DNA from: SAR202 cluster bacterium bin22
GTDB taxonomy: Bacteria > Chloroflexota > Dehalococcoidia > Lucifugimonadales > UBA3495
Reading direction: 5' to 3'
Assembly (NCBI GenBank): GCA_002238505.1
Contig: MPMM01000015.1
Span: forward strand, 1-64,000
Length of the DNA stretch: 64,000 nucleotides
The translations under genes were made by a program, and so were the position numbers. The notes under the pieces were generated by a model. That model worked only from the letters and a program-made list of their open reading frames with translations, was not told where the DNA came from and searched no databases. Numbering within the stretch: position 1 is the stretch's first letter; every line of letters starts with the position of its first letter. Shown piece after piece: positions 5,011-53,164 of the stretch.

Positions 5011-5279
5011 GAAAGCTCCGACCCCTTGGGTGGCTTGTACGTGTACCGATATGTCGCCCGGCCGACCCTCCCCGGGTCACGCCGCGGTTTTGATGCCTTC
5101 CCCTAGTGAAACATTCAAGGCAATGCCCCAGTTCTTAGCCTCACGGCTCGCCTGCGACACGCTATGTTCGATTTATGGGCTATGTCGCTCGCGGCCCCGG
5201 GGCCTTAAAAAGGGACGCTTGGAAATTCAACGCGGCCGGTGGCCGGCATGCACGATAATTTGGTTCTGGCGGTTTTTCC

Positions 5280-19860: not shown

Positions 19861-20810
19861 ATGAGTATTCAACGCCTGCCTCAACGATCCACGGAACTGG
19901 CCTCTGCCGGTCTCACGGTCCAGGACCAGTGCCGGATACAGGAGACGCTGAAGAGTTCCACATCGGCCAACACCCGCCGTGCCTACAACCAGGCCTGGCG
20001 GCGGTTTGAAGCCTGGCCGAGGACCGTGGGACTACCCACCCCCCGCCGGCGACGCCGGAGCTGGTGGCCGCCTTCCTGACGGAACTGGCCGAAGAGGGCA
20101 AGTCGGTGGCCACCCTACAGCTCATCAAGTCCGCCCTGGCGGCGATCCACCGGGCCACCGGGCCACCGGCCACGAGGACCCAACCGACTACGAGGGGGTC
20201 AAGCGCGTGCTGCAGGGGATCTCGCGGGCCCACGGCAGGGCCCAGAAGCAGGCCAGGCCTTGACCGCGGTGAGGGCCACCGCCAGCGGCCGTCGGTCCCT
20301 GGGGCGTGAGGGCCGGCGCCAGGAGTCGGCCGAGAGGGCCTCCTGGCGGGGGAGGGTGGACGTCGCCCTGCTGTCCGTCCTGAGGGACGGGCTGCTTAGG
20401 CGCTCCGAGGTCGCGGCGCTCACCTGGGGCGACGTGGAGCTGCGGGACAACGGCATCGGCCTGCTCCAGCTGCACCGGTCAAAGACCGACCAGGAGGGCG
20501 AGGGAGTGGTGCTCTACATCGGAAGGGAGGCGGCGCTCAGGGCCATCCGGCCAGCAGAGCAGCTGGTCTTCGGCCTGTCGGCCAGGCAGATCGGCAGGAG
20601 AGTGCAGGCGGCGGCCAGGGCCGCGGGCCTGGGCGAGGGGTATACGGGGCACAGCGGCCGCGTGGGCATGGCCCAGGACCTGGGGTGGAGCTGCCGGCCC
20701 GTATGACCGCCGGCCGGTGGAAATCTTCCAAGATGCCGGCACGGTATACCGAGCGCCAAGCCGCCGACCGGGGGGCGGTGGCCAGGTACTACCAGGAAAG
20801 CGGGAAATAG
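19861..20810 (+). pseudogene. decayed tyrosine recombinase, copy 2
   Basis: Start ATG 19861, only 20 bases after the previous gene. The N-terminal domain (TVQDQCRIQETLKSSTSANTRRAYNQAWRRFEAW) is followed by several frameshifts; the next blocks LVAAFLTELAEEGKSVATLQLIKSALAAIHRATG and EGVKRVLQGISRAHGRAQKQARP are in other frames. The catalytic domain reads LLRRSEVAALTWGDVE, then LGEGYTGHSGRVGMAQDL, then another frameshift before MTAGRWKSSKMPARYTERQ and a TAG at 20808-20810. The Arg, HxxR and Tyr are all present but not in one frame. Confidence 0.85.
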
Positions 20811-21480: not shown

Positions 21481-22554
21481 ATGTCCAGCGTATCCAGTGC
21501 TCTTCGCCCTCAATGGCAGGCGATCTCTCAGAAGGATTTTCGGGAGATGTACGGCCAATTGGGTTCCATACAGGAATTAGCTGACTTTTGGGAGATACCA
21601 GCCTCTCAACTCGCCTACTACGCGTTCAGGATCGATAAAGACTCGGCGTATCGAACCTTTAGCATAGCGCGACGCTATGGCCAGCAAAGGTTGATCGAAG
21701 CACCAGCACGTACGCTCAAATACATCCAACGCATCATGCATGAGTCGCTAACTCGAATGTACAGCCCTCATCCGGCTGTACATGGGTTTACGCCCAACCG
21801 TTCTGTCGCTACGAACGCGAGAGTGCACCTGCACCAACGGTATGTCCTGAATATTGACTTGGCAGATTTCTTCCCAAGCATAACCCAACAGAGGGTCTTC
21901 GGTAGGCTGGTTGCGAGACCATATGAATTGCAGTCACGGGTGGCTAACGCGATCGCTTCGTTGGCCACGAATCGGTACGGCCAGTTGCCCCAGGGAAGTC
22001 CGTCATCGCCTGTCATTGCGAACATGCTAACGGCCGGACTCGATACCGACTTGGCTAACTTGTGCGGGAAGTATCGCTGTTGGTATACCCGGTATGCTGA
22101 CGACATTACCATATCCATATCACGTGGCGAGATGCCTCCGCAAATCGCCAGATACCCAAACGCCAACGGTACCGGCCAAGTAGTCATCGGTGATGATTTG
22201 GCGGACATCATCGAACGGCACAGTTTTCGCATAAACCACCGCAAGAGTAGATTGCAGAGCTACTGGACACGCCAAATGTGCACTGGGCTGATTATCAACG
22301 GCGACCGGCCCTCACTCCGAAGACCGTATATACCAAACCTAAGGTCGTTAGTTGACCACTGGTCTAAGCATGGATGGCAAGACGCCGCACAAATTCTTCA
22401 TTTGAAAGAAGGTCTTCCTGTCTTCGAAGACCGGCAAATTTTCGTAAACTACGTGATGGGCAAAATCGGGTACCTTAGAATGGTGCGTGGAGAGGACGAC
22501 AAGGTATCCAAGCGGCTATACGAGATAGTCTCTTCAATACCGCAATATCACTGA
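21481..22554 (+). CDS. retron-type reverse transcriptase
   Basis: This encodes 357 residues; ATG 21481 has GAGAGG upstream. RT motifs in order: NARVH at 112-116, matching the retron region-X NAxxH; NIDLADFFPSI at 124-134 (motif A); QGSPSSP at 171-177; YADD at 205-208 (catalytic aspartates); CTGLIIN at 267-273, corresponding to the retron VTG motif with Cys for Val. No maturase or endonuclease domain is fused, unlike group II intron RTs. Retron RTs copy the msd part of their own RNA into branched msDNA and guard a toxic partner. The RNA lies directly upstream, and an FRG-domain gene follows after 44 bases. Confidence 0.9.
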   Translation: MSSVSSALRPQWQAISQKDFREMYGQLGSIQELADFWEIPASQLAYYAFRIDKDSAYRTFSIARRYGQQRLIEAPARTLKYIQRIMHESLTRMYSPHPAVHGFTPNRSVATNARVHLHQRYVLNIDLADFFPSITQQRVFGRLVARPYELQSRVANAIASLATNRYGQLPQGSPSSPVIANMLTAGLDTDLANLCGKYRCWYTRYADDITISISRGEMPPQIARYPNANGTGQVVIGDDLADIIERHSFRINHRKSRLQSYWTRQMCTGLIINGDRPSLRRPYIPNLRSLVDHWSKHGWQDAAQILHLKEGLPVFEDRQIFVNYVMGKIGYLRMVRGEDDKVSKRLYEIVSSIPQYH

Positions 22555-22598: not shown

Positions 22599-23573
22599 AT
22601 GATTGCAAAGTCAATAACAACGGCTAGCTACTCTGTACACACGTCCAAGTCTGCACGGGAGTTTCTCGATTATTTGCTTATCAGTGCAGACCATTGGCGC
22701 GGGGCCAACCGTGGCGATCTGGCATATCGTGGCCAAGCTTCAAGCGAATGGCCGCCGTTGCCTAAAGCGTTTCGTCCCGCCGAAAGAATCGGCTACGGAC
22801 CAAATGCGCCAACCCCTCACCTGACTCGCGTAGAACCGCAAGCACAGGCCGAATTCCGTACGCTGCTCGAATTCGTGAAGTCGGCTGACGATGCAGGTCT
22901 TGAGGTAACCGAGGCGGGGGGGCGATTGTTGTTGCAAGAAAACCCGCGTCTCTTTTTCGGCGATCCAAATTGGGAATACAGCTGGCCTCAAGACGAGGTC
23001 TTAGAAACACTGGCACTGGCACAGCATCACGGCGCCCCCACCCGGCTTCTTGATTTTACGGAAGACCCATTGGTAGGAGCCTATTTCGCCGCAAGCACCG
23101 CTTGGGATCCCAAGAGAGGCCAAAGGGTTAGGGGATTGGGAAGAAAACCCATGTCGGTGTGGGTTATAGATTTGAGATTCATCCGAGCTCTCGATGCCGT
23201 AGACCATCGTTATAAAGAGCGTATCGGGCAGATCAGGGTGCCCAGAGCCAACAATTCTTATATCAACGCGCAAAGTGGCTTTTTCCTAATCGACCGAGGT
23301 GCCAACGATGTGATGATCCAAGAGGGCCCGCTTTCTGTCGCCCAGGTGGCCGTAGAGCGCGCCAATTTTTGGCGAGTAGGTAACCGTCTTGCGAGCCGAC
23401 GCATTAAACAAACTTGGTTCGACGAGATTCCTGTTAAACAGGTAAGCCTCCCAGCCAATCAGACCAAGGCCCTCCTCCAAGAACTGGAAAGGCGAGGGAT
23501 CACCAAGGCAACTTTGATGCCTAACTTAGACCGTGTAGTGGAGTCGCTCGAACTGCGGAGGTCCACCGCTTGA
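22599..23573 (+). CDS. FRG-domain protein, probable retron effector
   Basis: This encodes 324 residues. The FRG domain is clear: LAYRGQASSEW at 41-51, then LALAQHHGAPTRLLDFTEDPLVGAYFAA at about 138-165, where H-G-x-P-T-R-L-L-D-F/W-T is the family hallmark. The C-terminal part (QSGFFLIDRGANDVMIQEGPL... to QTKALLQELERRGITKATLMPNL) resembles the usual FRG tail. FRG proteins occur in many defence contexts as suspected toxins; their biochemistry was not established as far as I know. It lies 44 bases after the retron RT on the same strand, so it is most likely the effector of that retron. No signal peptide or TM helix is visible. Confidence 0.85.
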   Translation: MIAKSITTASYSVHTSKSAREFLDYLLISADHWRGANRGDLAYRGQASSEWPPLPKAFRPAERIGYGPNAPTPHLTRVEPQAQAEFRTLLEFVKSADDAGLEVTEAGGRLLLQENPRLFFGDPNWEYSWPQDEVLETLALAQHHGAPTRLLDFTEDPLVGAYFAASTAWDPKRGQRVRGLGRKPMSVWVIDLRFIRALDAVDHRYKERIGQIRVPRANNSYINAQSGFFLIDRGANDVMIQEGPLSVAQVAVERANFWRVGNRLASRRIKQTWFDEIPVKQVSLPANQTKALLQELERRGITKATLMPNLDRVVESLELRRSTA

Positions 23574-23649: not shown

Positions 23650-24673
23650 ATGACCACCCAGAAACCCCTCCTCACAGCTTCCGAGGAAAGATCAAGGATC
23701 AACCCCCAGCTGCCACAACCGGGATCACCGGTGCCGACGTCCAGCGCCTCAGGAACTCCCTGGACCACAGCGTCTCCGATAACACCCGGGCCATATACAA
23801 CTCCGCATGGCGCTCCTTCGAGGCCTGGACCAACCACCGACGCATCCTGGACCTGACCGCCAACCCAAGCCTGGTCGCCGCCTACTTGGCCCACCTGGCC
23901 GAGGAACGACGTCTGTCGGTATCCACCATCCGGCTCCACAAGACTGCCCTGGCCGCCGTCCACCAGGCTAATGGCCGCCAAGACCCCACCGACCACGAGG
24001 GCGTCCGCAGAACGATGAAAGGCATCGCCCGGGCCCACGGCAAACGCCAGAAGCAGGCAAAACCCCTCACCTCCGAGGCATTGGCGGCGTCAGGTCCACA
24101 GCCCCCACCAGGTGCCCCCTGGGAGACGGCAAGAAACAGGAATCAGCTGAGAGAACTTCCTGGAGGGCCCGCGTGGACTTTGCGCTGCTGTCCGTCCTGA
24201 GGGACGGCCTCCTACGCCGCTCAGAGGCCGCGGCACTCACCTGGAGCGACGTCGAGCTGCGCGACAAAGGGACCGCGCTGATCAACGTCTGGCGGTCCAA
24301 GACCGACCCCGAGGCCGAGGGCGTCACCCTTTACATCGGACCCCAGGCCGGCGAGGCCCTCCAGGCGATAAAGCCAGCCGAGGAGCTGCTGGACCGGAAC
24401 ATATCGGTCTTCGGGCTATCACCCCGCCAGATCGGCCGGAGAGTGAGTGCCGCGGCCAAGGCCCCAGGCCTGGGCGAAGGTTACACCGGCCACAGCGGCC
24501 GCGTGGGAATGGCTCAGGACTTGGCCAAGACCGGCACCGAGCTGCCGACCCTCATGACCGCAGTCCGGTGGAGCAGTTCAACAATGCCAGCACGGCACAC
24601 CGAGCGGTAGATAGAGGACCGTGGTGCAGTGGCCAGATATTATCTGGAAGGTGGAGAGAACCTAACTGAATAG
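23650..24673 (+). pseudogene. decayed tyrosine recombinase, copy 3
   Basis: The best-preserved copy. It starts MTTQKPLLTASEE, then NSLDHSVSDNTRAIYNSAWRSFEAW, SLVAAYLAHLAEERRLSVSTIR and EGVRRTMKGIARAHGKRQKQAKPLT, with frameshifts near 23740 and 24090. The catalytic domain has LLRRSEAAALTWSDVE (Arg) and GYTGHSGRVGMAQDL (HxxR). The catalytic Tyr is replaced: MPARHTER instead of ARYTER, near 24596. The next codon after TER is a TAG where the other copies have Gln. The relic then continues DRGAVARYYLEGGENLTE to TAG 24671-24673. So even its catalytic residue is lost. Confidence 0.87.
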
Positions 24674-27812: not shown

Positions 27813-27836
27813 TCTACATCCTGCCAAGGAGGAGGC

Positions 27837-27998
27837 ATGGCCCAGGACCTGGTCAAGAGAGGCGTGGAACTGACGGCCCTGATGACTGCGGGCCGGTGGA
27901 AGAGATCCAGGATACCGGTGCGGTACACGGAACGCCAGGCGGCCGGCCGGGGCGCAGTGGCCAGGTATTACCAGGCCAGCCAGGCCAGCATCAGTTGA
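27837..27998 (+). pseudogene. tyrosine recombinase 3' fragment, copy 4
   Basis: Only the last 54 codons remain: MAQDLVKRGVELTALMTAGRW..., IPVRYTERQAAGRGAVARYYQ, ending at TGA 27996-27998. Homology to the other copies begins abruptly at the Met of the VGMAQDL block, 24 bases after the previous gene. The catalytic Tyr is present. It marks the right end of the 15.6-28 kb series and could be the junction of an integrated or recombined element. Confidence 0.85.
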
Positions 27999-28854: not shown

Positions 28855-28950
28855 AGAGCGACTGCAGATATACAACCTACATCCGTTGGAATCAAATAGC
28901 TACATAGCTTTGCAGTTACATATCTAGATATCTAACTAGCTATATATCTC
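28855..28950. repeat. AT-rich repeats 3' of the partition genes
   Basis: A strongly AT-rich stretch holds recurring TAGCTA, ATATCTAGATATCTA and AACTAGCTATATATC units. The same kind of units recur at 29838-29905 and 29985-30062, on the other side of the ParA/RHH pair. Arrays of short repeats beside ParA-RHH genes are often the centromere bound by the RHH protein. Confidence 0.5.
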
Positions 28951-28951
28951 A

Positions 28952-29173
28952 CTATTTCCTCAACGCATCCCCAAATAACTTGAGGCACCAGTCACGGAGA
29001 GTCACCCCTTCGTCCAGCGCCCGCCGCCGCATCGCCAGGTGCATCTCCACCGGTACCTTGATGTTCATCTGACGCAGCTCCTCCTCCTTCACCTGGGCGG
29101 TAACACGCTCCACAGCAGCATCCTTTGACCGGTTAGGCCGGTTAGGAGACCGGCTTAAATCAGGACTAGTCAT
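28952..29173 (-). CDS. RHH protein, probable ParA partner
   Basis: This encodes 73 residues. The C-terminal half (EELRQMNIKVPVEMHLAMRRRALDEGVTLRDWCLKLFGDAL) is a clear ribbon-helix-helix: strand NIKVP, then two helices. The N-terminus is polar and basic (SRSPNRPNRSK), as in ParG-type centromere-binding proteins. The start codon lies inside the end of the ParA gene (8-bp overlap), so they are translationally coupled. AT-rich repeat arrays flank the pair. It most likely binds them and stimulates ParA. Confidence 0.75.
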   Translation of the reverse strand: MTSPDLSRSPNRPNRSKDAAVERVTAQVKEEELRQMNIKVPVEMHLAMRRRALDEGVTLRDWCLKLFGDALRK

Positions 29174-29807
29174 CTTTTAGCAACTCCTTGATCTCATCAC
29201 GCAGGGCCTCGATCTCACGACGGGCCGGCCCAACACGGCCGTCAAACACCGTAGTGCCCGCAGCAGCACTCACAGCATAAGCCACCCGCTGGGTGGTCCC
29301 AGAAGCCAGCAAGGGCAACGGCTTTTCCTCCAAGGCCTGCGCCAAAGACCGCTGCACGGCAGTATTGGATATAGCCCGGGAAATCACGTAGGCGCCCCTG
29401 GGAGAACCGCCAGTGACCTCCTGACGTGCCAAAACAAGGTCAACAACGGGACCGGTGGCCCACACGTCCAGAGGGCTGGGCTGCACCGGCACCAGCACCA
29501 GATCAGACACGCGGATCGCGTCAGCGCTCACGTCAGCATACTGAGGTGGACAGTCGATAAGCACCAGGGAGTGCTCCCGCCGCAAATTCCGTATATTACG
29601 GACCAACACGCTCCGCTCCATCGGCTCCACCTCGAACCCCACCCCACCGGCCGGGCTCATTGCCCGCCAGTCGGCGGCCGACCCCTGAGGATCAAGGTCC
29701 ACTAGGACAACGGAGTCTCCCTCCAGGACAAATGCCTGAGCCAGGTTGAAGGCCAGGGTGGTCTTGCCGCACCCCCCCTTCTGGTTGCACACCGCGATCA
29801 CCGCCAT
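29166..29807 (-). CDS. parA: ParA family partition ATPase
   Basis: This encodes 213 residues from ATG 29807, with GGGAGG upstream; the frame is open to 29837 but without such a signal. The deviant Walker A is at residues 10-17 (KGGCGKTT), then VVLVDLDPQGSAADW (A'), then SLVLIDCPPQYAD (Walker B). No N-terminal HTH is present, so this is the short ParA (type Ib) form that pairs with a small RHH protein. It segregates plasmids or integrated elements by cycling on the nucleoid. The downstream overlapping gene is that RHH partner. It strongly suggests a plasmid-derived module. Confidence 0.92.
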   Translation of the reverse strand: MAVIAVCNQKGGCGKTTLAFNLAQAFVLEGDSVVLVDLDPQGSAADWRAMSPAGGVGFEVEPMERSVLVRNIRNLRREHSLVLIDCPPQYADVSADAIRVSDLVLVPVQPSPLDVWATGPVVDLVLARQEVTGGSPRGAYVISRAISNTAVQRSLAQALEEKPLPLLASGTTQRVAYAVSAAAGTTVFDGRVGPARREIEALRDEIKELLKDD

Positions 29808-29837
29808 CACATCCTCCCATCTGAACAACTCTCGCAA

Positions 29838-30062
29838 TAAGCAAATAGCTAGATAGTTGTCTATGTAACTATACAGATATTGGAATAGCTAGTTAGTTAC
29901 CTATCTGACCGCAACCAAAGAATACCAGAGGCGCCGCCCAAATTGCCATCACCTTGACAGCCACGTTTCTTTCAAAAAGGAAGGGAGCTATCAACATAGA
30001 TAGATATCTTGCTATACCGCTAGTTAGCTATATAAATATCGGGAATTATATAGAAGGAAATC
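29838..30062. repeat. AT-rich repeats upstream of parA (candidate centromere/operator)
   Basis: Two clusters, 29838-29905 and 29985-30062, contain many copies of TAGCTAG, AGTTAGTTA, ATAGATAG and TAGTTAGCTATATA. They sit directly upstream of the parA start, so they could act as both partition site and operator for autoregulation. The 79 bases between them are GC-richer and have no repeats. Confidence 0.5.
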
Positions 30063-30652: not shown

Positions 30653-30871
30653 ATGAAAACAGAAGACACACATTTCCACGCCTGGATCCTGCGAATCAAC
30701 GACAACACATTCGGCTTCCACGCCATGGAGGGCGCCTACCCCAACGACATCACCTGCCGCCGGCACGCGTTAAAGGAAGTAGATGGGGACCCCAATAAAG
30801 TGATCATCATGATCTGTCGCAGTGAGGACACCTGCCCGAGCAAGCACGAGGCCGCAGCAATGGCAACCTAG
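30653..30871 (+). CDS. 72-aa hypothetical protein
   Basis: The ATG has AGGAG 9-13 bases upstream. The product has strands and polar helices (FHAWILRINDNTFGFHAMEGAYP, then KVIIMICRSEDTCPSKHEAAAMAT) and four Cys/His-like positions but no clear zinc motif. A very strong terminator follows within 12 bases, supporting a real transcription unit. No family is recognised. Confidence 0.55.
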   Translation: MKTEDTHFHAWILRINDNTFGFHAMEGAYPNDITCRRHALKEVDGDPNKVIIMICRSEDTCPSKHEAAAMAT

Positions 30872-30882
30872 CACAAACGAGA

Positions 30883-30919
30883 AAGGCGACCGATGCCCCC
30901 ATCGGTCGCCTTCGTTTTT
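30883..30919 (+). terminator. strong intrinsic terminator
   Basis: Arms of 13 perfect base pairs (30883-30895 with 30900-30912), a CCCC loop, then CGTTTTTG. It ends the 72-aa gene. Because it overlaps the upstream start option of the next gene (ATG 30893), the next gene more likely starts at 30965. Confidence 0.85.
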
Positions 30920-30964: not shown

Positions 30965-32206
30965 ATGGGTACAGAGTACCACCGGGGCCAAAATCAGGCA
31001 ATCCCCGCCGAGCACGAATATCGGCCAAAACCGCGCCCGGGAACTCCCCAGGACCACTACTCAGCCGACACCGGCCAATGGGACGGCCAGCTACCTCATT
31101 CCGACATCGCGGACCAGAGCAACGACCCTGCCCAACACCAATCACCTACCTGGCCAGGAATTCTAGAACGCCTGCTTTGGACCAGAGCAATCATCAGGGC
31201 TCATCACCTCCCACCCCCACAAGCAACAATCCTAAACGAAATAGCCTTCAGAGACGGCCGAGGCCTTGGCTGTACGGCCACAATCGCCACCCTGGCGCTG
31301 GATACAGGCTACAGCGAAAAGCCGATCAGACTTGCCATCCAAGCCCTTGAAAAACAAGCCATAGTCATGGTCAACGGCACCCAGGGCCAGAGAAAAATCA
31401 TGCGCCTACCCGTCGTAGACGGCAAACTGCCCTGGCCAACTTCGGTCGCAGAAACCGATGTTATCACCCAGGATGACCTCCAACTTCGGTCGCAGAATCC
31501 GATGTTATCACCAACTTCGGTCGCAGAATCCGATGTTCCATCAGGCCACCATCCAGCAACTTCGGTCAGAGAAACCGAAGTTAAACACCGAACATCGGTT
31601 GCTGCGACCGAAGTTGGGGTCAACTTCGGTCGCAGCAACCAAGCAACTTCGGTCGCAGCAACCGATATAACGGTAAATAAACAACAAAGAGAGAGAGAAG
31701 AATATATAAATATTTCTCTCTCTCATGGTTCCCTTCCCGGTTCTCCGGTCGGAGAAACCGAAGTTTCACCTGCCCATAACTCCGAGCCTCGGTCGGAGAG
31801 TCCGAGGTTGGCACAAACCCAGACCAGACACTCCGAACCTGAAGACCAAACCACCAACGCTGAAGCAGAGCGTATCCGCGCCCTGGTTGTCCAGAACTGG
31901 CCATTGCTGGAGCAAAACGCCTGGAAGTTCCTTGAAGCCGCAGTCAAGCATTATCAGACCTATGGCATGACATACCTGCAACGCGACCTCCGAATCAAGC
32001 AGGAGAACCTCGAAAGCGAAGAACGAGCCACCAGGACCTGCGCTCACTGTAACACCGTCCACCAGTCCACCGACCAGCTAAGACCCTGCGTCATATGCCA
32101 GGAATCCATTTGCGTCTCCGAAACCAACCCTTGCCACCGAACCGGCTGCGACGGGAATCCACGTTCCAGGAGAAGCCCAGCACCACGATCCCGACAGCGG
32201 AGATAA
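30965..32206 (+). CDS. replication initiator-like protein with intragenic iterons
   Basis: This encodes 413 residues; the start at 30965 has GGAG upstream. Residues about 60-140 look like a winged helix (LLWTRAIIRAHHLPPPQATILNEIAF... to ALDTGYSEKPIRLAIQALEKQAIVMV), as in plasmid and phage replication or HTH proteins. Residues about 158-240 are low-complexity TSVAETDV-type repeats encoded by 25-bp DNA repeats. A helical segment follows (RIRALVVQNWPLLEQNAWKFLEAAVKHY) and a Cys-rich C-terminus (CAHC...CVIC...C...C), probably zinc-binding. The layout is like phage lambda O, an initiator with its origin iterons inside the gene. Initiator function is inferred from this, the nearby ParA module and the AT-rich stretch. 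Confidence 0.7.
   Translation: MGTEYHRGQNQAIPAEHEYRPKPRPGTPQDHYSADTGQWDGQLPHSDIADQSNDPAQHQSPTWPGILERLLWTRAIIRAHHLPPPQATILNEIAFRDGRGLGCTATIATLALDTGYSEKPIRLAIQALEKQAIVMVNGTQGQRKIMRLPVVDGKLPWPTSVAETDVITQDDLQLRSQNPMLSPTSVAESDVPSGHHPATSVRETEVKHRTSVAATEVGVNFGRSNQATSVAATDITVNKQQREREEYINISLSHGSLPGSPVGETEVSPAHNSEPRSESPRLAQTQTRHSEPEDQTTNAEAERIRALVVQNWPLLEQNAWKFLEAAVKHYQTYGMTYLQRDLRIKQENLESEERATRTCAHCNTVHQSTDQLRPCVICQESICVSETNPCHRTGCDGNPRSRRSPAPRSRQRR
31438..31809 (+). repeat. iteron array inside the initiator gene
   Basis: About nine copies of a 25-bp partly palindromic unit, AACTTCGGTCGCAG-A/C-A-ACCGATGTT in consensus: 31438-31462, 31482-31506, 31513-31537, 31558-31582, 31591-31615 (reverse orientation), 31622-31640 (short), 31645-31669, and more diverged ones at 31741-31765 and 31786-31809. 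Relative to the start codon, the units begin in phase 2 mostly, but in phase 1 (31482) and phase 0 (31622), so the same DNA is translated in different frames. The selection must be on the DNA, as for protein-binding iterons of an origin. Confidence 0.85.
31674..31726. other. AT-rich palindromic segment, possible DNA unwinding element
   Basis: Between the seventh and eighth iterons lies an AT-rich inverted repeat: GAGAGAGA...AATATATAAATATT...TCTCTCTC. Origins with iterons usually have such an easily melted segment next to the array. It is inside the coding sequence. Confidence 0.5.
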
Positions 32207-32209
32207 CAC

Positions 32210-32566
32210 ATGGGCATTTTCAACCTAACCATAGCGGTAGCCAGCATCCACGGTGAAACCTTCGAACACGTCGACGTCACGGTAGACACCGCATGCGATT
32301 ACACCACCCTCCCCACGGAGATGCTTCAGAGACTCGCAGTACCAGTGAGCGGCACAGCCATATCGGACATGGCCGAAGGCCGCCAGGTACCGTCCGACAC
32401 CGGCTGGGCCCGGGTCAGGCTTGAGGGCCGACAGGTCTACACGCCGGTAATATTCGCCCAGGAGGGCGAACCAAGCCTCCTGGGTGTCGTCACCCAGGAG
32501 GAGGCCCGCCTGGGGATGGACCCCAACAACAAACGTCTGATTCCGGTGAACCTCCGCCGGTACTGA
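32210..32566 (+). CDS. retropepsin-like aspartic protease-like protein (DTA variant)
   Basis: This encodes 118 residues, starting 3 bases after the initiator gene with GGAG upstream. The layout matches short clan-AA (retropepsin-like) proteins: VDVTVDTACDYTTLPTEMLQRL, where the catalytic D-T-G is D-T-A, then a strand region and EPSLLGVVTQEEARLGMDP near the C-terminus, the second family signature. The loss of Gly after D-T makes catalysis doubtful. A paralogue with intact DTG is at 33009. The role in the plasmid-like module is unknown. Confidence 0.8.
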   Translation: MGIFNLTIAVASIHGETFEHVDVTVDTACDYTTLPTEMLQRLAVPVSGTAISDMAEGRQVPSDTGWARVRLEGRQVYTPVIFAQEGEPSLLGVVTQEEARLGMDPNNKRLIPVNLRRY

Positions 32567-32986: not shown

Positions 32987-33008
32987 ATTCAAAACAGAGG
33001 TGCAACCC

Positions 33009-33365
33009 ATGGGAACTGTCCTGGCCACCATCCAAGTGGCCCACCACCACGAACCCCTGACATTCCGTCCACTGGAAGTCGAGGTGGACACCGGCTGCAC
33101 CTATACAGCCGTACCCAGCCAGCTTCTCGAAGCACTGGGCGTACCGGTCACCCGGGTCGAAGGCTCCAAGCTCGCCGACGGCAGTATAAAGCCGCTGGAC
33201 GTAGGCGACGCTGCCGTCATACTGGCCGGAAAGGAATTCATCACCACCGTGAGCTTCGCGGACGAGGGCGAACCCAGCCTCCTGGGGGTAATCACCCTGG
33301 AACAGGCGCTCATGGCCGTTGACCCTGTCAACGGCGAACTCATCCCCGTTGAGGCCCTGGCGTAA
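33009..33365 (+). CDS. retropepsin-like aspartic protease-like protein (DTG)
   Basis: This encodes 118 residues from ATG 33009 (AGAGGTG upstream), the same length as its paralogue at 32210. The catalytic signature is intact: LEVEVDTGCTYTAVPSQLLEALGV, followed by EPSLLGVITLEQALMAVDPVNGELIPV. Short retropepsin-like proteins of this size are common in Chloroflexota and Cyanobacteria; they would act as homodimers. Substrate is unknown. Confidence 0.85.
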   Translation: MGTVLATIQVAHHHEPLTFRPLEVEVDTGCTYTAVPSQLLEALGVPVTRVEGSKLADGSIKPLDVGDAAVILAGKEFITTVSFADEGEPSLLGVITLEQALMAVDPVNGELIPVEALA

Positions 33366-33459: not shown

Positions 33460-33870
33460 ATGAATAATCACGTCATCAGAAATGACAAGACCGGCGATTC
33501 GGACCCCAAGGCCCTGGCTATAGCCCAGTGGTTGCACCAGGCAACCAACGCGGAGAGCACATATCTGTTAGGCTCCCGCGCCAGAGGCTACTACCACAAA
33601 TATTCGGATATCGACGTCCTGGTTATAACCCCAGACCTGCACAACGAGGCGTGGCTTGAAAGGATCGAGGACCAGGCTCGCCAGTTGCAACGTGAACGAG
33701 ACGAGGAAGTCGTCAGCGTCCAGGTGGTCAACATGACCCCCCAGGAATTCCATCGGCGACGCAAGCTGCTGAACAACCTGGCACGCAGCATTGCCACCGA
33801 GGGCATACCAGTTATGGCATCAGAAAGACTCGACTACGGCGGCAGCTACCCAGAGGATGAACACCCTTAA
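33460..33870 (+). CDS. MNT-type nucleotidyltransferase
   Basis: This encodes 136 residues. The signature GSRARGYYHKYSDIDVLV (residues about 39-56) has the G-S-x-x-x-G and D-x-D of the minimal nucleotidyltransferase fold. A long helix (WLERIEDQARQLQRERDEE) and a strand VVSVQVVNMTPQEF follow. Proteins of this kind act as antitoxins of HEPN toxins or as tRNA/protein nucleotidyltransferases. No HEPN partner is adjacent. The stop codon overlaps that of the convergent helicase gene by 4 bp. Confidence 0.8.
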   Translation: MNNHVIRNDKTGDSDPKALAIAQWLHQATNAESTYLLGSRARGYYHKYSDIDVLVITPDLHNEAWLERIEDQARQLQRERDEEVVSVQVVNMTPQEFHRRRKLLNNLARSIATEGIPVMASERLDYGGSYPEDEHP

Positions 33871-36800
33871 TCGGCCCGCGCCGCCCCTATGGCCGCAAGA
33901 ATCGCGGCGTTGATCCTGGACCCGCCCCGCTTAAAGCCCAGCTCCCGCTTCATCTCGCGCAGCAGTTCATCATCAGTCCGAAGCAGCGTGTCCGAGTTCA
34001 ACCACCTGGCCAGGGCCACCAGTTCCCGCATCGAGTATTCCGTAATGGGCAGTCCGACCCGCACAGCAGGCCTGGGACCCCGCTCCGACTCCACAGGAGT
34101 CACAGGAACCACCACCGGCGATGGATCGGAAGTGTTGGCCACCTCAACGCCCGCGTCGGCCTCGTCGGCCGCTGCCACCGCCCTGCGCCATGCCTCCAAC
34201 ACCAGGTCTGCCTGCCCCTCAGGGTCCCGGAACCACTCGGTGGACCAGATCCGGTGAAACCGCCACCCCAGGTTCTCCAACACCTGCTGACGCAGCCGGT
34301 CCCGGTCCCGCGCCGTGGGCGCCGAGTGATAACTGGCGCCGTCCGCCTCCACGGCCAACACCATCCGCCCGGGTTGCTCCGGATGAGCACAGGCGAAGTC
34401 CAGCCGGTAACCGGCCACCCCGTACTGGGGCGTGACCGGTATGCCCCGCTTCTCCAGCTGCCGCTGGATGTTCAGCTCAAAGGCGTTCAGGGGCTCTTCG
34501 CTCAGGCTGCCGCCCATCGCGCTTCCGCCGGTGGCGGCAAACTCCAGGTAGCTCCGCAGAAGCTCCACCCCCTCGGCCGAGGACCGGCCCGGGTCCATAT
34601 CATGGTGGGAGAAGCCGGCCACCAGGTGAATCCTGGAGCGGGCCCGGGTTATGGCCACGTTCAACCGCCGCTCCCCGCCATCCTGGTTCAAAGGCCCAAA
34701 CCGATAGGGCAGCGTCCCGTTGGCCGCCTTGTGGTACCCCACGCTGAGGATGATGACGTCCCGCTCGTCGCCCTGCACCCGCTCGATGTTCTTGACGAAG
34801 AACCGCTCCTCCCGCTCCATGGCAAAGAAGGGGTCCAGCCCGCGGTCGTCCTCAGCGCCGAGACGGCGGCGCAGGGCCTCCTCGATATTCTCCGCGTGGT
34901 GGGAACCGAAGGCGATCACCCCCAGGGACTCCTCGGGCCGCTGACGCGCATGCCCAATAATCAGGTCAACCACCCTCTCCACCTCGTCAGGATGGGACCT
35001 GGTGGAGCGCCCGAGGGTCGGTGGGAGATCCAACTGGTGAAAGGTCAACGGCGATTCCAGGACCGTGCCCGGAAACGCCGTCAGAGCCTCGCCGTAGATG
35101 TGGTTATTGGAGAAGGCAATGAGCCGGCCGTCCCGGCTGCGGTAATGCCACCGGAGCAGCTGCTCCTTGATGGGCAGGCCCTTCACCACGTCTAGGATGG
35201 ACTCTATGTTGGCGATCAGCGCCAGGCCCTCGGCAGCGTCGTCAGAATCATCGTCATCGTCGAGATCCTCCGGCTCCTGGCTGCGGAAGAAGCTGGTAGG
35301 CGGCAATTGCCGGTCGTCCCCGGCCACAACGGCCTGTTTGGCCCGGGCCAGGCAGCCGATGGCCTCCGCCGGCGGGATCTGCGACGCCTCGTCGAAGATG
35401 ACCACGTCGAAGAGCTCGGTGTCCGCTGGAATCATCTCCGCCACCTGAAGCGGCGACATCATCCAGCAGGGCCTGAGCCCACACAGCACCTCCGGCGCTT
35501 GGTGGACCAGCTGGCGCACCGAAAGGTGCCGGCTCTTCTTCACCGCCTCCCGTCGCACCAGGTCCCGCTGCTCCGGATGCTCGTTCATGGCCTGGGTCGC
35601 CTGCTCGGCGGCCTCGCGCCGGATCCGGGCCGGATTCAGCTGCAGGTGCTGGGCGTCCAGGCGGGCAAACTCGTCGCGGGACCGGTTGTGGGACACACCC
35701 ACAAAACCGGCCAGCCGAGGCTCCTGCAGGGTAAGCTCGGACCAGACTCCCTGGAGCCAGGACGACGCAATCGCGTTGGTGGCCAGCCCCACCGGAAAAT
35801 CCCTTTCGACCGCCGAGACAATCTGGCCGATGCCGGCCACCTCAAACCGTCGTTCCAACTCCCGCAGCCTGGGCAACCTGCCAGCCACCTGCTCCTGATA
35901 CACCAACCATTGCAGGGTGGCACGCAACTCCGCCTCGGACAGGATCAGAAGTGAGCCCGAGCCAAGAAACTCGCCAATCTCCCCCACGGACGCCACCAGT
36001 TCACTGACCGAATCGTGCAGCTGCGAAACACCACCACCCTCCAGCGCCCGGGGAAGAGCATTGGGCCCAAGGGAGTAAAACCGCCACGCTCCCACCAGCC
36101 GCTCCGCCATCTGTACGGCTCCGTAAACATCATCGCCGGACAGCTTCGAACCATCAAGCGCCTTTGCCTGCACAGCCCGCCTGGCAGCCCGGTACGGGCC
36201 CGACAGGCCAGCCTTAAACCGGCCGACCAGGCCGGACCGCGGCTTCAGCGCCCCCATCAGCTGAGCATGGTCCAGGCCATAGATCTCAGGTCGGAACCTC
36301 CGACCGTACTGCTCAATTTCGGCCAGTAGCTGCGTCAAAGTCGCCCATTCACCCACCCGCTGGGGCAGGGCCAGCCCCAACCGCCCCGCGCCGGTCGACA
36401 ATTCCGATTGGCACCGGGCCAGTTGCTGCTGCAGGACAGCATGAATCAGATCCAGGATACGCCGCACTTGGTCGGTGGAGTCCGGCCAGACCTGCGCCCA
36501 GCCAGGATAACGCTCGGCCAGCCAGGGCCCCTCCAGGTCAATCCAGCGCTCCACGTCCCGCTGCAGCTCCCGCAGACCGTCCCGGTCCAGCGCGTTCACC
36601 TTCTCCGCGGGAAGACGGGGGACGTTCCGGACCTCCTCCGGAATCTCCAGCAGCTGGGCCTGCACCTCAAAGGCGCTGACCTTCCAGGGCTCACGCTGCC
36701 GGTGGAGGGCCTCGGCATGGCCCACCAGCTCCCGCTTCCGCTCCGCAAGGTCACGGTGGACGTCGGAATAGTCCCGCTCCGGGGTGGACCCAATGCGCTG

Positions 36801-37955
36801 CATGGCGTCGGCCAGGCCCCGGGAGAACTCCCGCCTGGACTTGAAACCGCCGTGGCAGTCCATGACCAGGTCGGAGAGACCAGCGCGTTCCAGCCGGTTG
36901 ATCACCACCTCGACGGCCGCCTGCTTCTGGGCCACAAACAAAACCCGCTTGGAGTTGGCGATCAGCGCCGCGATGAGGTTGGCGATGGTCTGCGACTTGC
37001 CGGTGCCCGGCGGGCCCCAGATGATCTCAGACTGGCCGGCCAGGGCCCGGTTGATGGCCTGGTGCTGGCTGGCATCGGCGTCCATGACCAGGTACTCGCT
37101 GTCCGGAGGTTCCGTATCGGGCAAGTCCGGCGGAGGATCATCCAGATGCTCACCCAGGGCCTCCCGCGCCTCCCGCACTCCGGCAATGGCCGCCACCAGG
37201 TCATTGGCGGCGAAGGCCTCCAGGTTCTGCTCCAGGTCGGCCACCAGTGGCAGGTTGTTGTACCGGAAGTTGCCCACCACCAGCCTGGGAGTAATATTAA
37301 GTCCCGGGACCTGGGACAGGCTGCCAGCGACCTGGCCCAGCAAAGCCACCACGTCGGCGAAACTGTCCGGCGGGTCCTCCAGGTCGAAGTCGTCGTCGTC
37401 CAGCTCAACACCGTACTCCGTCCGGAGCGCGTGGGCCATTATGGGATTGAAATGAGCGTCCCCCGCCACCTGCAGGAAGAACTCGCGGTGGGCCGCGTCC
37501 CCGGGCTCCACCGTCAACGGCAGCATGACCACCGGAGCGTTGGGACGGGCGCCGGTTACCACGTCCCACGTGGCCAGACCCGCCGCCAGAAACAGGATGC
37601 TGGCGCCCTTCTCCTCAAGGTAGGCCTGGGCGACCTGGCCAATGCGCTTGACACGGTTACGGGCGTCCGTCAGTGAAGAAGACCCGTTCACCGAGGCCTC
37701 GGGAATGAGGTTAGACAGGCGGACCCTCTGGCCGGCCAGCAGGGAATCAACAGCGGAGGGATTGACCTGACCACCCATGTCGCCCGGGGTTAGGTCCAGC
37801 GTGCCGGTCTTCAGGTCCCGGTAATAGACCAGGGGGCTGCGCGTCGTATCCAGGAGCTGTTGCTTCCACACGGTAGCCACCCGCTGCAGGGCGCCCACGC
37901 GCTCCGATTGCTCGGGTTGAGAGGGAGAAAGAGTTGCCAAAATATCCCGTTCCAC
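33867..37955 (-). CDS. SF1 helicase-nuclease fusion (DUF4011/DUF559-type)
   Basis: This encodes 1362 residues. Residues 1-300 match the DUF4011-like N-terminus (WKQQLLDTTRSPLVYYRDLKTGTLDL). The Walker A is at about 313-320 (GPPGTGKS) with QTIANLIAALI, Walker B at about 845-855 (DVVIFDEASQIPPAEA), and late motifs GVIAFGSHHAENIEEAL, ERVQGDERDVIILSVGY and LNVAITRARSRIHLVAG. At about 1150-1240 a Vsr/DUF559-like nuclease follows: RGIPVTPQYGVAGYRLDFACAH...LAVEADGASYHSAPTARDRDR and NLGWRFHRIWSTEWF. The start is a GTG at 37955 with no strong RBS. Large proteins of this type are predicted defence helicase-nucleases. Confidence 0.88.
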   Translation of the reverse strand: MERDILATLSPSQPEQSERVGALQRVATVWKQQLLDTTRSPLVYYRDLKTGTLDLTPGDMGGQVNPSAVDSLLAGQRVRLSNLIPEASVNGSSSLTDARNRVKRIGQVAQAYLEEKGASILFLAAGLATWDVVTGARPNAPVVMLPLTVEPGDAAHREFFLQVAGDAHFNPIMAHALRTEYGVELDDDDFDLEDPPDSFADVVALLGQVAGSLSQVPGLNITPRLVVGNFRYNNLPLVADLEQNLEAFAANDLVAAIAGVREAREALGEHLDDPPPDLPDTEPPDSEYLVMDADASQHQAINRALAGQSEIIWGPPGTGKSQTIANLIAALIANSKRVLFVAQKQAAVEVVINRLERAGLSDLVMDCHGGFKSRREFSRGLADAMQRIGSTPERDYSDVHRDLAERKRELVGHAEALHRQREPWKVSAFEVQAQLLEIPEEVRNVPRLPAEKVNALDRDGLRELQRDVERWIDLEGPWLAERYPGWAQVWPDSTDQVRRILDLIHAVLQQQLARCQSELSTGAGRLGLALPQRVGEWATLTQLLAEIEQYGRRFRPEIYGLDHAQLMGALKPRSGLVGRFKAGLSGPYRAARRAVQAKALDGSKLSGDDVYGAVQMAERLVGAWRFYSLGPNALPRALEGGGVSQLHDSVSELVASVGEIGEFLGSGSLLILSEAELRATLQWLVYQEQVAGRLPRLRELERRFEVAGIGQIVSAVERDFPVGLATNAIASSWLQGVWSELTLQEPRLAGFVGVSHNRSRDEFARLDAQHLQLNPARIRREAAEQATQAMNEHPEQRDLVRREAVKKSRHLSVRQLVHQAPEVLCGLRPCWMMSPLQVAEMIPADTELFDVVIFDEASQIPPAEAIGCLARAKQAVVAGDDRQLPPTSFFRSQEPEDLDDDDDSDDAAEGLALIANIESILDVVKGLPIKEQLLRWHYRSRDGRLIAFSNNHIYGEALTAFPGTVLESPLTFHQLDLPPTLGRSTRSHPDEVERVVDLIIGHARQRPEESLGVIAFGSHHAENIEEALRRRLGAEDDRGLDPFFAMEREERFFVKNIERVQGDERDVIILSVGYHKAANGTLPYRFGPLNQDGGERRLNVAITRARSRIHLVAGFSHHDMDPGRSSAEGVELLRSYLEFAATGGSAMGGSLSEEPLNAFELNIQRQLEKRGIPVTPQYGVAGYRLDFACAHPEQPGRMVLAVEADGASYHSAPTARDRDRLRQQVLENLGWRFHRIWSTEWFRDPEGQADLVLEAWRRAVAAADEADAGVEVANTSDPSPVVVPVTPVESERGPRPAVRVGLPITEYSMRELVALARWLNSDTLLRTDDELLREMKRELGFKRGGSRINAAILAAIGAARAD

Positions 37956-38610: not shown

Positions 38611-41600
38611 ATGCCTGGCCAATTGCTCACCCAGTATTTCCTGACAGACGGAATAAAAAGCACCGAGGAATGGAAGGAAGCCGCGCCGGCATTTAACACC
38701 TTCAGAGAAAATACTCGCGCCATATACGAGAACTTCACCAAATACCATAATCCGAACGAACCGGTCACCGAAGAAGACCTCATTAGGCCAATACTTGAAG
38801 CATTGGGCTGGAAGGACTACCTGCCGCAACAGGGGAGCAAAAACAACGAAGATATTCCAGACCACCTGCTATTCGCAGACTCTGAATCCAAGATTAAGGC
38901 CGTGGAACGTACCAACTCTCAAGAGCGATTCCTGGATAGCTTGGTAATCGAAGAGAGCAAACGGTTCGAGCTTCCTCTCGACACGCGAGACGAGGGAGAC
39001 AAATCACAGACAGCCTCCCCTCATGGACAGATCCTAAGATACCTCGCAACAGCAGACACCATCACCGACGGCAGAATCCGCTGGGGTATCCTGACCAACG
39101 GCTGCACATGGCGCCTCTACGACAACCGTGCCCGTCCACGAGCCACGAGCTATTTCGAGGCCAATATAAAAGAAGCCTTGGAGGCTGAAAACGAAGATAG
39201 TCTCCGGCTCTTCTACTTACTATTCCGCCGAGATACCTTCAATTCCAAGCAAGGAGCCACCGCAAGCTTCATTGAAGTCGCCTTAGCCGAAGGCAAACGC
39301 TACGAAGAGCGTGTGGCTCAAGACCTGTCCGGAGCTGTATTTAAGGACGTATTCCCCAGCCTTGTCGAATCCCTGGCTGACGCCACCAACCAGGAACTCT
39401 CACAAGTCCGAGAAGCAGCTCTCACCTTCCTATACCGGCTACTCTTTATCCTTTACGCAGAGGACAGGGGCCTGTTACCGGTCAACGACCCCAGATACGA
39501 TGACTACGGCCTTCGAAAACGCGTCCGTGACGACATAGCAAAAAGGACAGAGGACGTAAGGAATTTCTCTGCAACAGCAACCAACTATTACGACCACATC
39601 ACAACGCTTTGCAAAATCATTGACGAAGGCGACTCATCCATCGGCATCCCTCCTTACAATGGCGGGCTATTTGCTGCAAATGCAACACCTCTGCTGGCAA
39701 AAGTACGTATCACAGACAAGGCCCTGGCGCCAATAATTTACAACCTCAGCCATACCAAAACCGACCAGGGCCGGCAGTTCGTCAACTACCGGGACATGTC
39801 AGTCCAGCAGCTGGGTTCAATCTATGAAAGGCTACTTGAGCAGGAACCGGTCCGAACTGACCAAGGCAAAATAGTCATTCGTCCCAACAGCTACGCTCGC
39901 AAAGATAGCGGCAGCTATTTCACTCCCCAGGAACTCGTAGACCTGATCGTCAACAACACCCTCAAGCCCCTGGCGGAGGAACGGCTGGCCGCCTTCGAAA
40001 GTAGAGGCAAGGAACTTGATAACGACCTTCGGCCGACATCGGAAAGACAAGCAGAATTAGTGGAGCTGGACCCTGCCGAAGCAGTTTTGAACCTTAAGGT
40101 TCTGGATCCTGCCATGGGCAGCGGCCATTTTTTAGTGACGGCCGTCGAATTTCTCTCCGACTACATCGCCGAATTGGTGGAATCCACTCCCAGCGTACCA
40201 ACCTGGCTCAACGGCGAATATGTCTCTCCCCTCATCGACCGGATAGCAGCCATCAGAGCCGAGATCGTCAAACGAGCCACGGAAGCCAACTGGGCCCTGG
40301 ACCCAACCCAGCTAACCGACCAGACAATTATCAGGAGAATGGTACTAAAGCGCTGCATATATGGCGTAGACAAGAACCCCTTGACCGTAGAGCTAGCAAA
40401 AGTATCACTGTGGCTCCACAGCTTCACTGTAGGGGCGCCGTTGTCATTTCTGGACCACCATCTTCGCTGTGGAGACTCGCTGCTTGGCCTCACTGTCATG
40501 GAGGCTACTCAGGAACTGAACCGTTTGAGCGGCCTCTTCGCCAGTTCGGCCATCGCCGGAGCAGAAGCCGCCACGTCAGCAATGCAACAGATCGAGGATA
40601 TGTCCGATGCGGACATATCGGAGGTCCAGGAATCGGCATCACTATTCCAGGAGGTAGAAAGCACGACATCCGAACTGCGTAGCATGCTGGATCTTCTAAA
40701 TGGAATCCGTTGGTTGACGGCAGGAATGAAGTCCAAAGAACGCACCGCCTTTGAGGCACCGCTGGTTAACACCCTCGGTCAGAAACCCGCGCAGGATTTT
40801 GAGTTGCTGGCAAAGGGCCCAGACTCCCTCGACGTGGACACAAAAGAAAGCGAATACGAAGCCTTGGCAGCTTTCGGGCAATTATGGAACGACGCTAAAG
40901 CTATGGCAGAACAGGTAAACTTCCTTCATTGGGAAGTAGCTTTTCCCGGAGTCTGGTCCGGATGGGAAAACCCTCAGCCAGATGGCGGATTCGACGCTGT
41001 AATTGGAAACCCGCCTTGGGATAAAATCAAGCTTCAGGAGGTAGAATGGTTGGCCCCACGTTCCCAGGAACTGGCCCTAGCCGCCACGGCCGCAGCCCGA
41101 GAAGCGGGCATTCAACAGCTACGCGACACAGGGGCACCTATTGTCGACGAGTTCGACAGGGCCAGAGACCAAGCAGAAACCCTTAGCAAACTGGTTCGCA
41201 CCTCGGGACAATATCCGCTACTGAGCCGGGGGGATATAAATCTCTACTCACTATTCGTCGAACGGTCCTTGAGGTTAGTCAATTCTAAAGGAATAATAGG
41301 CCTCCTTTGTCAATCAGGCATCTATGCCGACAAGTTCGCGGCCCCATTCTTCAAGTCCATATCCACCAGTGGGCGCCTTGCCGGCTTGTTCGACTTCGAG
41401 AACCGGCGCAGCCGGATAAAACTAGCACCTTTCTTCCCAGACGTTGACTCGCGGTTAAAGTTTTGCGCACTCATACTTGGCGGAGAGCAACGAAGATTCC
41501 CAGAGACCCGATGCGCCTACTTCCTCGAGGACACAGAATCGGTCACGGACCCAGACCGTTGCTTTCCACTAACGCCAGCGGACTTTGCCCGGGTCAACCC

Positions 41601-42657
41601 AAACACCGGTACCGCGCCCATTTTCCGCACCCGTCGAGATGCCGAAATTACCCGCAACATCTACGAAAATCACCCTGTCATGGTGGACCGCTCTCAAGGT
41701 GTAGAACACCGGGCTTGGCCCGTCCGATACCAAACCATGTTTCACATGACCAACGATTCTCATCTCTTCCGCACAGCCGCCCAGTTACAAGCGGAGGGAT
41801 ATTATCCAATCGAAGGTAATCGCTGGAAAAAGGGAGAGAGCCTGTATTTGCCCCTCTACCAGGGTAGGATGATTCACCAATTCGATCATAGAGCAAACTC
41901 TGTTCAATTAAACCCTGAAAATACCCACAACCCTTACTTGAGCCTGGAGGCAACTCCAGAGCAACACGCCGATCCAGAGTTTATACCGCAAACGCAGTTC
42001 CTGGTTCCGGCATCCGACGTGGAAGAAACCTTATTGGACGACCAAGGATACGTGCTTACCTTCAGGGACATAGCCCGGCCCACAGATGCGAGAACGTCAA
42101 TAGCCTGCATAGCCCCTAAAGCCGGGTACGGAAACACCCTCCCGATTCTCCTCCGTACGAAAGGAGATCTCCATCCAGGAATCACCGCCTGTCAGCTTGC
42201 CAATTTCAACAGCTTCATTTTCGACTACATTACCCGCCAGAAAGTTCAGGGAACCCACCTCAACTGGTATATCGCCGAGCAACTTCCCGTGATAAAGCAA
42301 GAGTCTTATAAATCAGAGTTTGGTGGCACAACCGCCAGAGACCTGGTCTTAGACCACGTATTACGCCTAACCTATACAGCAAACGACATGACTCCTTTTG
42401 CCAGGGACCTGGGATATGAGGGCCCACCATTCATCTGGAATGATGACGAAAGACGCCACCTGCGAGCCAGGCTGGATGCTCTCTACTTCCACCTTTACGG
42501 CGTATCCAAAGAGGATGCAGAGTACATATTAAGCACATTCCCCATCGTCCAACGGGAAGATGAAGGCCAGTTCGGGTCCTACCGCACCCGAGACCTAGTT
42601 CTGGCTTACATGAGCGCTTTAGCAGCGGGAGATACCGAGACAAGAATTGCCATATAA
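38611..42657 (+). CDS. type IIG-like restriction endonuclease-methyltransferase
   Basis: This encodes 1348 residues; ATG has AAGGA 7 bases upstream. Residues 40-120 hold a probable nuclease domain: VTEEDLIRPILEALGW, then EDIPDHLLFAD and SLVIEESKRFELP, an E-x-K near D. The N6-adenine methyltransferase core has motif I at about 497 (DPAMGSGHFLV) and motif IV at about 800 (IGNPPWDKIK). A long region with Eco57I-type sequence and a C-terminal target-recognition-like part follow (FIWNDDERRHLRARLDALYFHLYGV). This is the single-chain Eco57I/MmeI-like layout, which cuts and methylates with one protein. It could also be a BREX-type PglX relative, but no BREX genes are adjacent. Confidence 0.85.
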   Translation: MPGQLLTQYFLTDGIKSTEEWKEAAPAFNTFRENTRAIYENFTKYHNPNEPVTEEDLIRPILEALGWKDYLPQQGSKNNEDIPDHLLFADSESKIKAVERTNSQERFLDSLVIEESKRFELPLDTRDEGDKSQTASPHGQILRYLATADTITDGRIRWGILTNGCTWRLYDNRARPRATSYFEANIKEALEAENEDSLRLFYLLFRRDTFNSKQGATASFIEVALAEGKRYEERVAQDLSGAVFKDVFPSLVESLADATNQELSQVREAALTFLYRLLFILYAEDRGLLPVNDPRYDDYGLRKRVRDDIAKRTEDVRNFSATATNYYDHITTLCKIIDEGDSSIGIPPYNGGLFAANATPLLAKVRITDKALAPIIYNLSHTKTDQGRQFVNYRDMSVQQLGSIYERLLEQEPVRTDQGKIVIRPNSYARKDSGSYFTPQELVDLIVNNTLKPLAEERLAAFESRGKELDNDLRPTSERQAELVELDPAEAVLNLKVLDPAMGSGHFLVTAVEFLSDYIAELVESTPSVPTWLNGEYVSPLIDRIAAIRAEIVKRATEANWALDPTQLTDQTIIRRMVLKRCIYGVDKNPLTVELAKVSLWLHSFTVGAPLSFLDHHLRCGDSLLGLTVMEATQELNRLSGLFASSAIAGAEAATSAMQQIEDMSDADISEVQESASLFQEVESTTSELRSMLDLLNGIRWLTAGMKSKERTAFEAPLVNTLGQKPAQDFELLAKGPDSLDVDTKESEYEALAAFGQLWNDAKAMAEQVNFLHWEVAFPGVWSGWENPQPDGGFDAVIGNPPWDKIKLQEVEWLAPRSQELALAATAAAREAGIQQLRDTGAPIVDEFDRARDQAETLSKLVRTSGQYPLLSRGDINLYSLFVERSLRLVNSKGIIGLLCQSGIYADKFAAPFFKSISTSGRLAGLFDFENRRSRIKLAPFFPDVDSRLKFCALILGGEQRRFPETRCAYFLEDTESVTDPDRCFPLTPADFARVNPNTGTAPIFRTRRDAEITRNIYENHPVMVDRSQGVEHRAWPVRYQTMFHMTNDSHLFRTAAQLQAEGYYPIEGNRWKKGESLYLPLYQGRMIHQFDHRANSVQLNPENTHNPYLSLEATPEQHADPEFIPQTQFLVPASDVEETLLDDQGYVLTFRDIARPTDARTSIACIAPKAGYGNTLPILLRTKGDLHPGITACQLANFNSFIFDYITRQKVQGTHLNWYIAEQLPVIKQESYKSEFGGTTARDLVLDHVLRLTYTANDMTPFARDLGYEGPPFIWNDDERRHLRARLDALYFHLYGVSKEDAEYILSTFPIVQREDEGQFGSYRTRDLVLAYMSALAAGDTETRIAI

Positions 42658-49564: not shown

Positions 49565-49802
49565 TGGTCTGCTCAGCCCCGGCCACTCCAGTGAAAGCAG
49601 GAGGCCAGAGAAAGCATCGTTGGTCAACGGTGAACTTACAGTTGGACATCCCACCGGAAAGTTCTCAATACGGTACACTTAGGCCCACCACCGGAACTGT
49701 TGTTCGTAGAATTGGCTTGAGCATCAGGGAGGTCGCTTAATTTTTCCGTGGTTCTGTCCAAACAGCGGGGCCCACTTCGGTATCTTGCGGCGGCACCCTT
49801 GC

Positions 49803-51408: not shown

Positions 51409-51575
51409 GGCGTATATCCGATGCTAGAATGTCAGAAATATATCATCAAGACTGACTATACGCAAGTAAGGACACTATTGGGAAATCGTTTCCCGGGGTT
51501 GATGGCGATAATTCCGACTCCGTGTTTTCTGTTAGCCTTACCACGTAGTCAGTGGTTTGTCGCAGGTGGATTAGC

Positions 51576-52343: not shown

Positions 52344-52347
52344 ATTC

Positions 52348-53112: not shown

Positions 53113-53164
53113 CTCAGTGGCAATTATCTTGAGGTCCCTGTGTGTGTTCAGTTGAAGCTACCAA

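Follow-up and report, generated by a model that had tools for sequence, protein, structure and literature searches.

In phage lambda, the replication origin lies in the middle of the gene for the initiator O, where O dimers bind inverted-repeat iterons and an AT-rich region opens; in lambdoid O proteins, extra iterons add residues to the protein (PMC5043065; PMC7466680). The HTH_36 group of replication proteins, present in plasmids, phages and islands (Paracoccus pAES7 and pMOS2 are examples), comprises helix-turn-helix initiators whose genes have iteron-like repeats nearby (PMC3832669). RepA_N initiators, among them those of pSK41 and PLE, combine a DNA-binding N-terminal domain, a variable C-terminal domain and semi-palindromic iterons (PMC7145576). 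In the origins of PICIs, iterons flank an AT-rich stretch on both sides (PMC6092414).

The window, that is, the whole stretch of 64,000 nucleotides that was analysed, contains a gene, here called rep (Table 1), which probably carries its own replication origin: judging from the sequence, Rep dimers would bind iterons within the coding region and an AT-rich dyad would open, in the manner of lambda O. The phasing of the iterons, the dyad, the winged helix predicted beside the array, parA with its partner and the disordered linker all fit the lambda O-like layout proposed in the initial annotation. As in lambda O, the iteron array lies within the initiator coding sequence, both in rep (contig C37) and in a paralogue on contig C44, the iterons are inverted repeats of the kind that a dimer could bind, and an AT-rich region, the putative opening site, stands beside them. 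Unlike lambda O, rep has nine units instead of four to six, its AT-rich dyad lies between units and not to one side of them, it lacks an adjoining P-like loader gene and has a plasmid-type parA partner, and Rep has a different C-terminal domain and no O-family sequence match. With RepA_N initiators Rep shares a predicted N-terminal DNA-binding domain, semi-palindromic iterons and a variable C-terminal domain, and it differs from them in iteron architecture, in its C-terminal cysteine cluster and in having no sequence match to the family. In some RepA_N systems, the origin is located inside repA. The iterons of rep stand on both sides of the AT-rich stretch as in PICI origins; unlike the pri-rep-ori arrangement of PICIs, where the origin is 3' of the initiator gene and beside a primase, the candidate origin is here inside the coding sequence of the winged-helix protein. 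Like the HTH_36 replication proteins, a relative of Rep presented below is an HTH_36 protein, with intragenic iterons, whereas Rep itself falls below the HTH_36 cut-off (14.1 bits against a curated 25); in contrast to rep, the Paracoccus modules are not described as having an intragenic array in the available part of their report (PMC3832669). Thus rep appears to work like lambda O and yet to be a sequence member of neither the lambda O nor the RepA_N family. None of the libraries searched describes the rep replicon family, which on this comparison is an undescribed one.

Table 1. Features of the rep locus in the window (contig C37).
Feature	Position	Strand	Remarks
Small Arc/ParG-like partner of parA	28952..29173	-	phrog_2639, E 0.037, weak match
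Centromere-like repeats	28895..28952		Downstream of the par genes
parA partition ATPase	29166..29837	-	NF041546, E 9.9e-67
Centromere-like repeats AATAGCTAGnTAGTT	29844..29909		Upstream of parA
72-aa ORF	30653..30871	+	Upstream of rep; 57% identical in C44
Hairpin	30883..30912	+	Strong, between the small ORF and rep; kept in C44; followed by a T run in C37
rep, putative replication initiator	30965..32206	+	413 aa from the likely start; ORF open from 30893
Winged-helix DNA-binding domain (predicted)	31154..31444	+	Residues 88-184; AlphaFold, structural matches, HTH_36 E 0.041
Iteron 1	31438..31462	+	Phase 2; pattern match
Iteron 2	31482..31506	+	Phase 1; pattern match
Iteron 3	31513..31537	+	Phase 2; pattern match
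Iteron 4	31558..31582	+	Phase 2; pattern match
Iteron 5	31591..31615	-	Phase 2; centre reversed
Iteron 6	31622..31646	+	Phase 0; 3' arm degraded
Iteron 7	31645..31669	+	Phase 2; pattern match
AT-rich dyad GAGAGAGAGAAGAATATATAAATATTTCTCTCTCTC, putative DNA unwinding element	31674..31730		80% AT over 40 bp; inverted repeat
Iteron 8	31741..31765	+	Phase 2; pattern match
Iteron 9	31785..31809	+	Phase 1
C-terminal domain	31847..32149	+	Three helices, then a zinc-ribbon-like cysteine cluster; common to the paralogue (45%)

Inspection of the sequence places nine 25-bp units inside the open reading frame of rep, with the consensus AACTTCGGTCGCAGAAACCGATGTT and a common build in which the arms AAC(T/A)TCGGT and ACCGA(T/A)GTT flank a 7-bp centre. 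All nine are quasi-palindromes, 6 to 10 of the 12 possible pairs being formed per unit. Counted on both strands with up to three mismatches, the palindromic pattern matched 13 times in the 64 kb and never outside the array, against 0.02 matches expected from dinucleotide shuffles of the window, in support of the earlier claim of nine such units within coding sequence. Over the 4.39-Mb genome, the exact pattern forms a cluster only at the rep array; single matches elsewhere are about as frequent as those of a reversed control pattern. Matches on contig C56, considered as a second array, were rejected as isolated singles. Units 6 and 7 share 2 bp, and the 3' arm of unit 6 is lost.

All three reading phases are used, as the initial annotation had stated, with six of the nine units in phase 2, two in phase 1 (31,482 and 31,785) and one in phase 0 (31,622); its count of a single phase-1 unit overlooked the one at 31,785 and does not stand. 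It had also described one unit as reversed, and the 7-bp centre of the unit at 31,591 does run in the opposite sense; this carries little meaning, since every unit is quasi-palindromic and its orientation is set only by the asymmetric centre. Centre-to-centre spacings are 44-31-45-33-31-23-96-44 bp in C37 and 33-33-44-31-23-96 bp in C44, the run 31-23-96 being identical. A helical period of about 10.8 bp fits both arrays (R 0.92 for C37, 0.93 for C44), with p of 2e-4 and 3e-3, respectively, in a test that searched periods of 10.2-11.2 bp against a simple null in which the spacings were jittered by at most 5 bp. Steps of 31, 23 and 44 bp necessarily shift the reading phase, and the array is therefore translated in all frames; the constraint on the placement of the units is helical and not one of reading frame.

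An AT-rich dyad, GAGAGAGAAGA-ATAT...CTCTCTC, occupies the 96-bp gap of each array, which in C37 falls between units 7 and 8. The C37 dyad, already recognised at this place in the initial annotation, is confirmed at 31,683-31,730 and coincides in part with the 40 bp of highest AT content (80%) in 28-34 kb; the C44 dyad likewise overlaps the 40 bp richest in AT of that gene (73%). GC skew, which had been proposed as a check on the locus, makes no turn at 31 kb and leaves the site unmarked. Neither a DnaA box in or near rep nor an Rfam family in 28-34 kb was found.

With regard to the encoded protein, the ATG at 30,965 is the likely start, since the first residues from there, MGT, are also those of the paralogue, and the upstream end of the open frame, at 30,893, lies inside a conserved hairpin. 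Rep gave weak matches to two phage replication initiation families (phrog_6643, E 0.0038; phrog_270, E 0.054). A Pfam search with E up to 1 returned no family besides HTH_36 (PF13730, E 0.041); neither Phage_rep_O nor RepA_N (PF06970) gave a match. AlphaFold predicts the winged helix with a pLDDT of about 70-82 over most of residues 88-184, and its structural Z to general winged-helix proteins is about 10; the DnaD N-terminal domain comes only at Foldseek rank 50, and the RepA_N fold of the pSK41/pTZ2162 RepA type is absent among the structural matches listed, which does not amount to exclusion. The iteron-encoded residues 185-320 are predicted to form a disordered linker (pLDDT 25-40). Residues 319-381 are helical and are followed by conserved cysteines of the zinc-ribbon type; for this C-terminal domain, a sequence search gave no solved relative and the best structural match, at Z 4.9, is uninformative.

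A genome search revealed one other copy of rep, on contig C44, and both loci have the same order of parA and its small partner, a divergent 72-aa ORF, the hairpin and rep. The C44 Rep keeps the N-terminal, winged-helix and C-terminal domains. Its N- and C-terminal parts are 39-45% identical to those of the C37 protein; by alignment count, the N-terminal extension is the best conserved part (about 60% identity), ahead of the C-terminal domain (about 45%) and the winged helix (about 30%). Seven palindromes, AACCGGGTGTCACACCCGGTT, occupy the middle of the C44 gene; they are placed as in C37, lie in mixed reading phases and occur nowhere else in the genome, and one of them is perfect. The units of the two arrays share a CGG-N9-CCG core at equal distance from the dyad centre and differ at most other positions. 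Centre-aligned without gaps, they are 40% identical, against 61-70% for the DNA of the gap segment, the N-terminal region and the C-terminal domain (70% for the dyad-bearing gap), a comparison somewhat favourable to the latter, for which alone gaps were allowed.

A TSVAETDV-like peptide is absent from the C44 Rep, whose array-encoded peptides are unrelated to those of C37. Because C44 keeps the palindromes and the spacings without such a peptide, it is the array that is conserved and not the peptide, as the initial annotation had held; the sole full-length homologue found thus shows the opposite of a retained peptide with lost repeats. The suggested alignment of the unit across related elements recovers the array and its spacings, while the letters of the units differ. 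In this regard, one genome harbours two sister initiators whose iterons occupy matching helical positions around the same AT-rich dyad but differ in their half-sites, and whose winged-helix domains (about 30% identical) have drifted further apart than the remainder of the protein (about 45-60%). It is conceivable, if somewhat short of probable, that the geometry of the origin is fixed and its letters are free, so that sister initiators and their intragenic sites change specificity together and become compatible, origin and frame being kept.

The two full-length members known belong to one 58-contig assembly, on contigs rich in decayed recombinases, which makes an integrated or decaying replicon possible, for instance the remnant of one within an island. 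We consider it unlikely, nevertheless, that the array is a relic, once a plasmid origin and now integrated and passive. Such a relic would consist of the same parts as a working origin and differ in whether they still function. Decayed recombinases and repeats are spread across the contig, no circular overlap was found for it, and units 6, 8 and 9 are degraded; against decay, the ORF from 30,893 is intact over 437 codons, and the reading frame, the spacing and the dyad are kept in both paralogues. It is improbable that the units are operators from which Rep or a regulator tunes or blocks transcription within the gene, the origin being elsewhere. Palindromic sites of winged-helix proteins are also typical of repressors, and among the best structural matches of Rep many are general regulators with a winged helix, Fur, PerR and LexA for instance, but nine phased sites over 370 bp with an embedded AT-rich dyad, kept in the paralogue, exceed what an operator needs, and the adjacency of parA and the weak matches to two phage replication-initiation families also point away from it. 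Rep may, in addition to an origin role, repress its own gene.

The array could instead be a site for copy-number control or incompatibility, acting by initiator titration or handcuffing, with strand opening outside the gene. The iterons of many plasmids control incompatibility (PMC3832669), and a second AT-rich stretch lies at about 30,030, between parA and the 72-aa ORF. We find this hardly likely: that stretch is without iterons, whereas the most AT-rich 40 bp fall within the array and occupy matching positions in the two paralogues. That the repeats are a coding feature, a TSVAETDV peptide with a function in the protein and the DNA similarity its by-product, is almost certainly wrong, for although six of the nine units share a reading phase and the third codon position carries slightly more mismatches in the C37 array (18% against 11-12%), the remaining three units fall in other phases, the peptides of the paralogue are unrelated and its phases mixed, the segment is predicted disordered, and palindromy and helical phasing are meaningless for a peptide.

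For an origin carried within rep, we propose the following model. The winged helix (residues 88-184) would bind each quasi-palindromic unit as a dimer, the units being encoded immediately 3' of it, and spacing by whole turns of about 10.8 bp would place every bound dimer on the same face of the helix. Once assembled, the complex could then strain and open the AT-rich dyad in the gap between units 7 and 8, and the helical and cysteine-cluster domain at the C-terminus, joined to the rest of Rep by a disordered linker that is incidentally encoded by the iterons, would recruit helicase and primase from the host. Segregation of the element would be the task of ParA, its small partner and the AATAGCTAG repeats, found at both ends of the par operon. 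The binding of Rep to the units, the melting of the dyad, the start of replication at rep and the recruitment by the C-terminal domain are all steps that we infer.

Directly 3' of rep there is no helicase-loader gene, the next genes encoding clan AA proteases and a nucleotidyltransferase; the order after rep is a clan AA protease, a short protein with a few cysteines and a second protease. These retropepsin-like aspartic protease genes lie at 32,210-32,566 and 33,000-33,365, and DNA 92% identical to the second is present near the C44 rep (4728-5091). Upstream, the 72-aa ORF conserves the motifs CRRH and ICR..TCPS and was found only beside the two rep genes; a match to it in genome G121 runs antisense to an ATPase gene and was taken as chance. 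The hairpin, GGCGACCGATG/CATCGGTCGCC, has a z of -7.2. It contains the C37 half-site letters ACCGAT and is kept in C44, where the iterons differ.

No homologue of Rep turned up in short-peptide scans of public genome-contig and viral-contig collections or in tblastn searches against plasmids and phages, and none among 58 relatives and a further 392 genomes of the class. With a profile of the two Reps, one further gene was retrieved (G091; E 9e-8), which belongs to a different family within the class; the match is confined to the winged helix. This gene encodes a strong HTH_36 protein (E 3e-17), is followed by a gene for an IstB/DnaC-like ATPase, and carries palindromes, AAAAGGTGTCACCGTGACACCTTTT, and half-sites in the coding sequence right after the winged helix, at spacings of 34-22-22-22 bp that all shift the reading phase. 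Genome G614 gave two weak profile matches (E 0.003-0.006), one of them with stops. Clear intragenic arrays recur in further HTH_36 genes of the phylum, among them one in G532 with spacings of 33-33-33-21-32-21 and R 0.94. A survey of HTH_36 genes, in which some of the repeat windows lie outside the ORF, found 10 of 27 downstream windows with more repeats than any of their 20 shuffles; it is only suggestive, because 7 of 56 control windows also exceeded theirs. With a margin of at least two copies, the counts were 5 of 27 against 1 of 56. The presence of such arrays inside further HTH_36 genes in the phylum suggests that the class may extend beyond the two Reps.

If rep works as proposed, the principle of lambda O, an initiator gene containing its own origin, would also hold for a plasmid-like element equipped with partition genes, and in a lineage for which none of the replicon families described so far gave a match. 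The paralogue pair offers a rare direct comparison, in which the iteron sequences and the DNA-binding domain diverge jointly against a constant spacing, helical phase and putative opening site, and thereby a testable system for how plasmids change incompatibility. The rep origin could also be a possible basis for replicating vectors in the lineage.

Other features of the genome deserve mention. A further HTH_36 gene (L044, G000:C15:9746-9910 and downstream) has two CTATGGGTAAC...GTTACCCATAG palindromes just past its stop codon. On the rep contig, an 833-aa ORF at 11,647-14,148 has a near-threshold Replication-relaxation match (PF13814, E 6e-5) and is possibly a mobilisation or replication partner of the element. 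Four related and mostly broken tyrosine recombinase copies, 66-88% alike, lie at 15,769-16,619, 19,861-20,800, 23,675-24,651 and 27,834-27,975, a fifth is located at 73.4 kb of the contig, and C44 carries several more, which suggests serial insertions. The contig is also rich in defence genes (21,481-22,554, 22,599-23,573, 33,867-37,955, 38,611-42,657 and 48,854-54,403), which encode a reverse transcriptase, an FRG protein, an MTES_1575 nuclease/helicase, an Eco57I-type R-M enzyme, an NYN/LOTUS protein, AbiEi/AbiEii, a SMODS-type nucleotidyltransferase and DruA.
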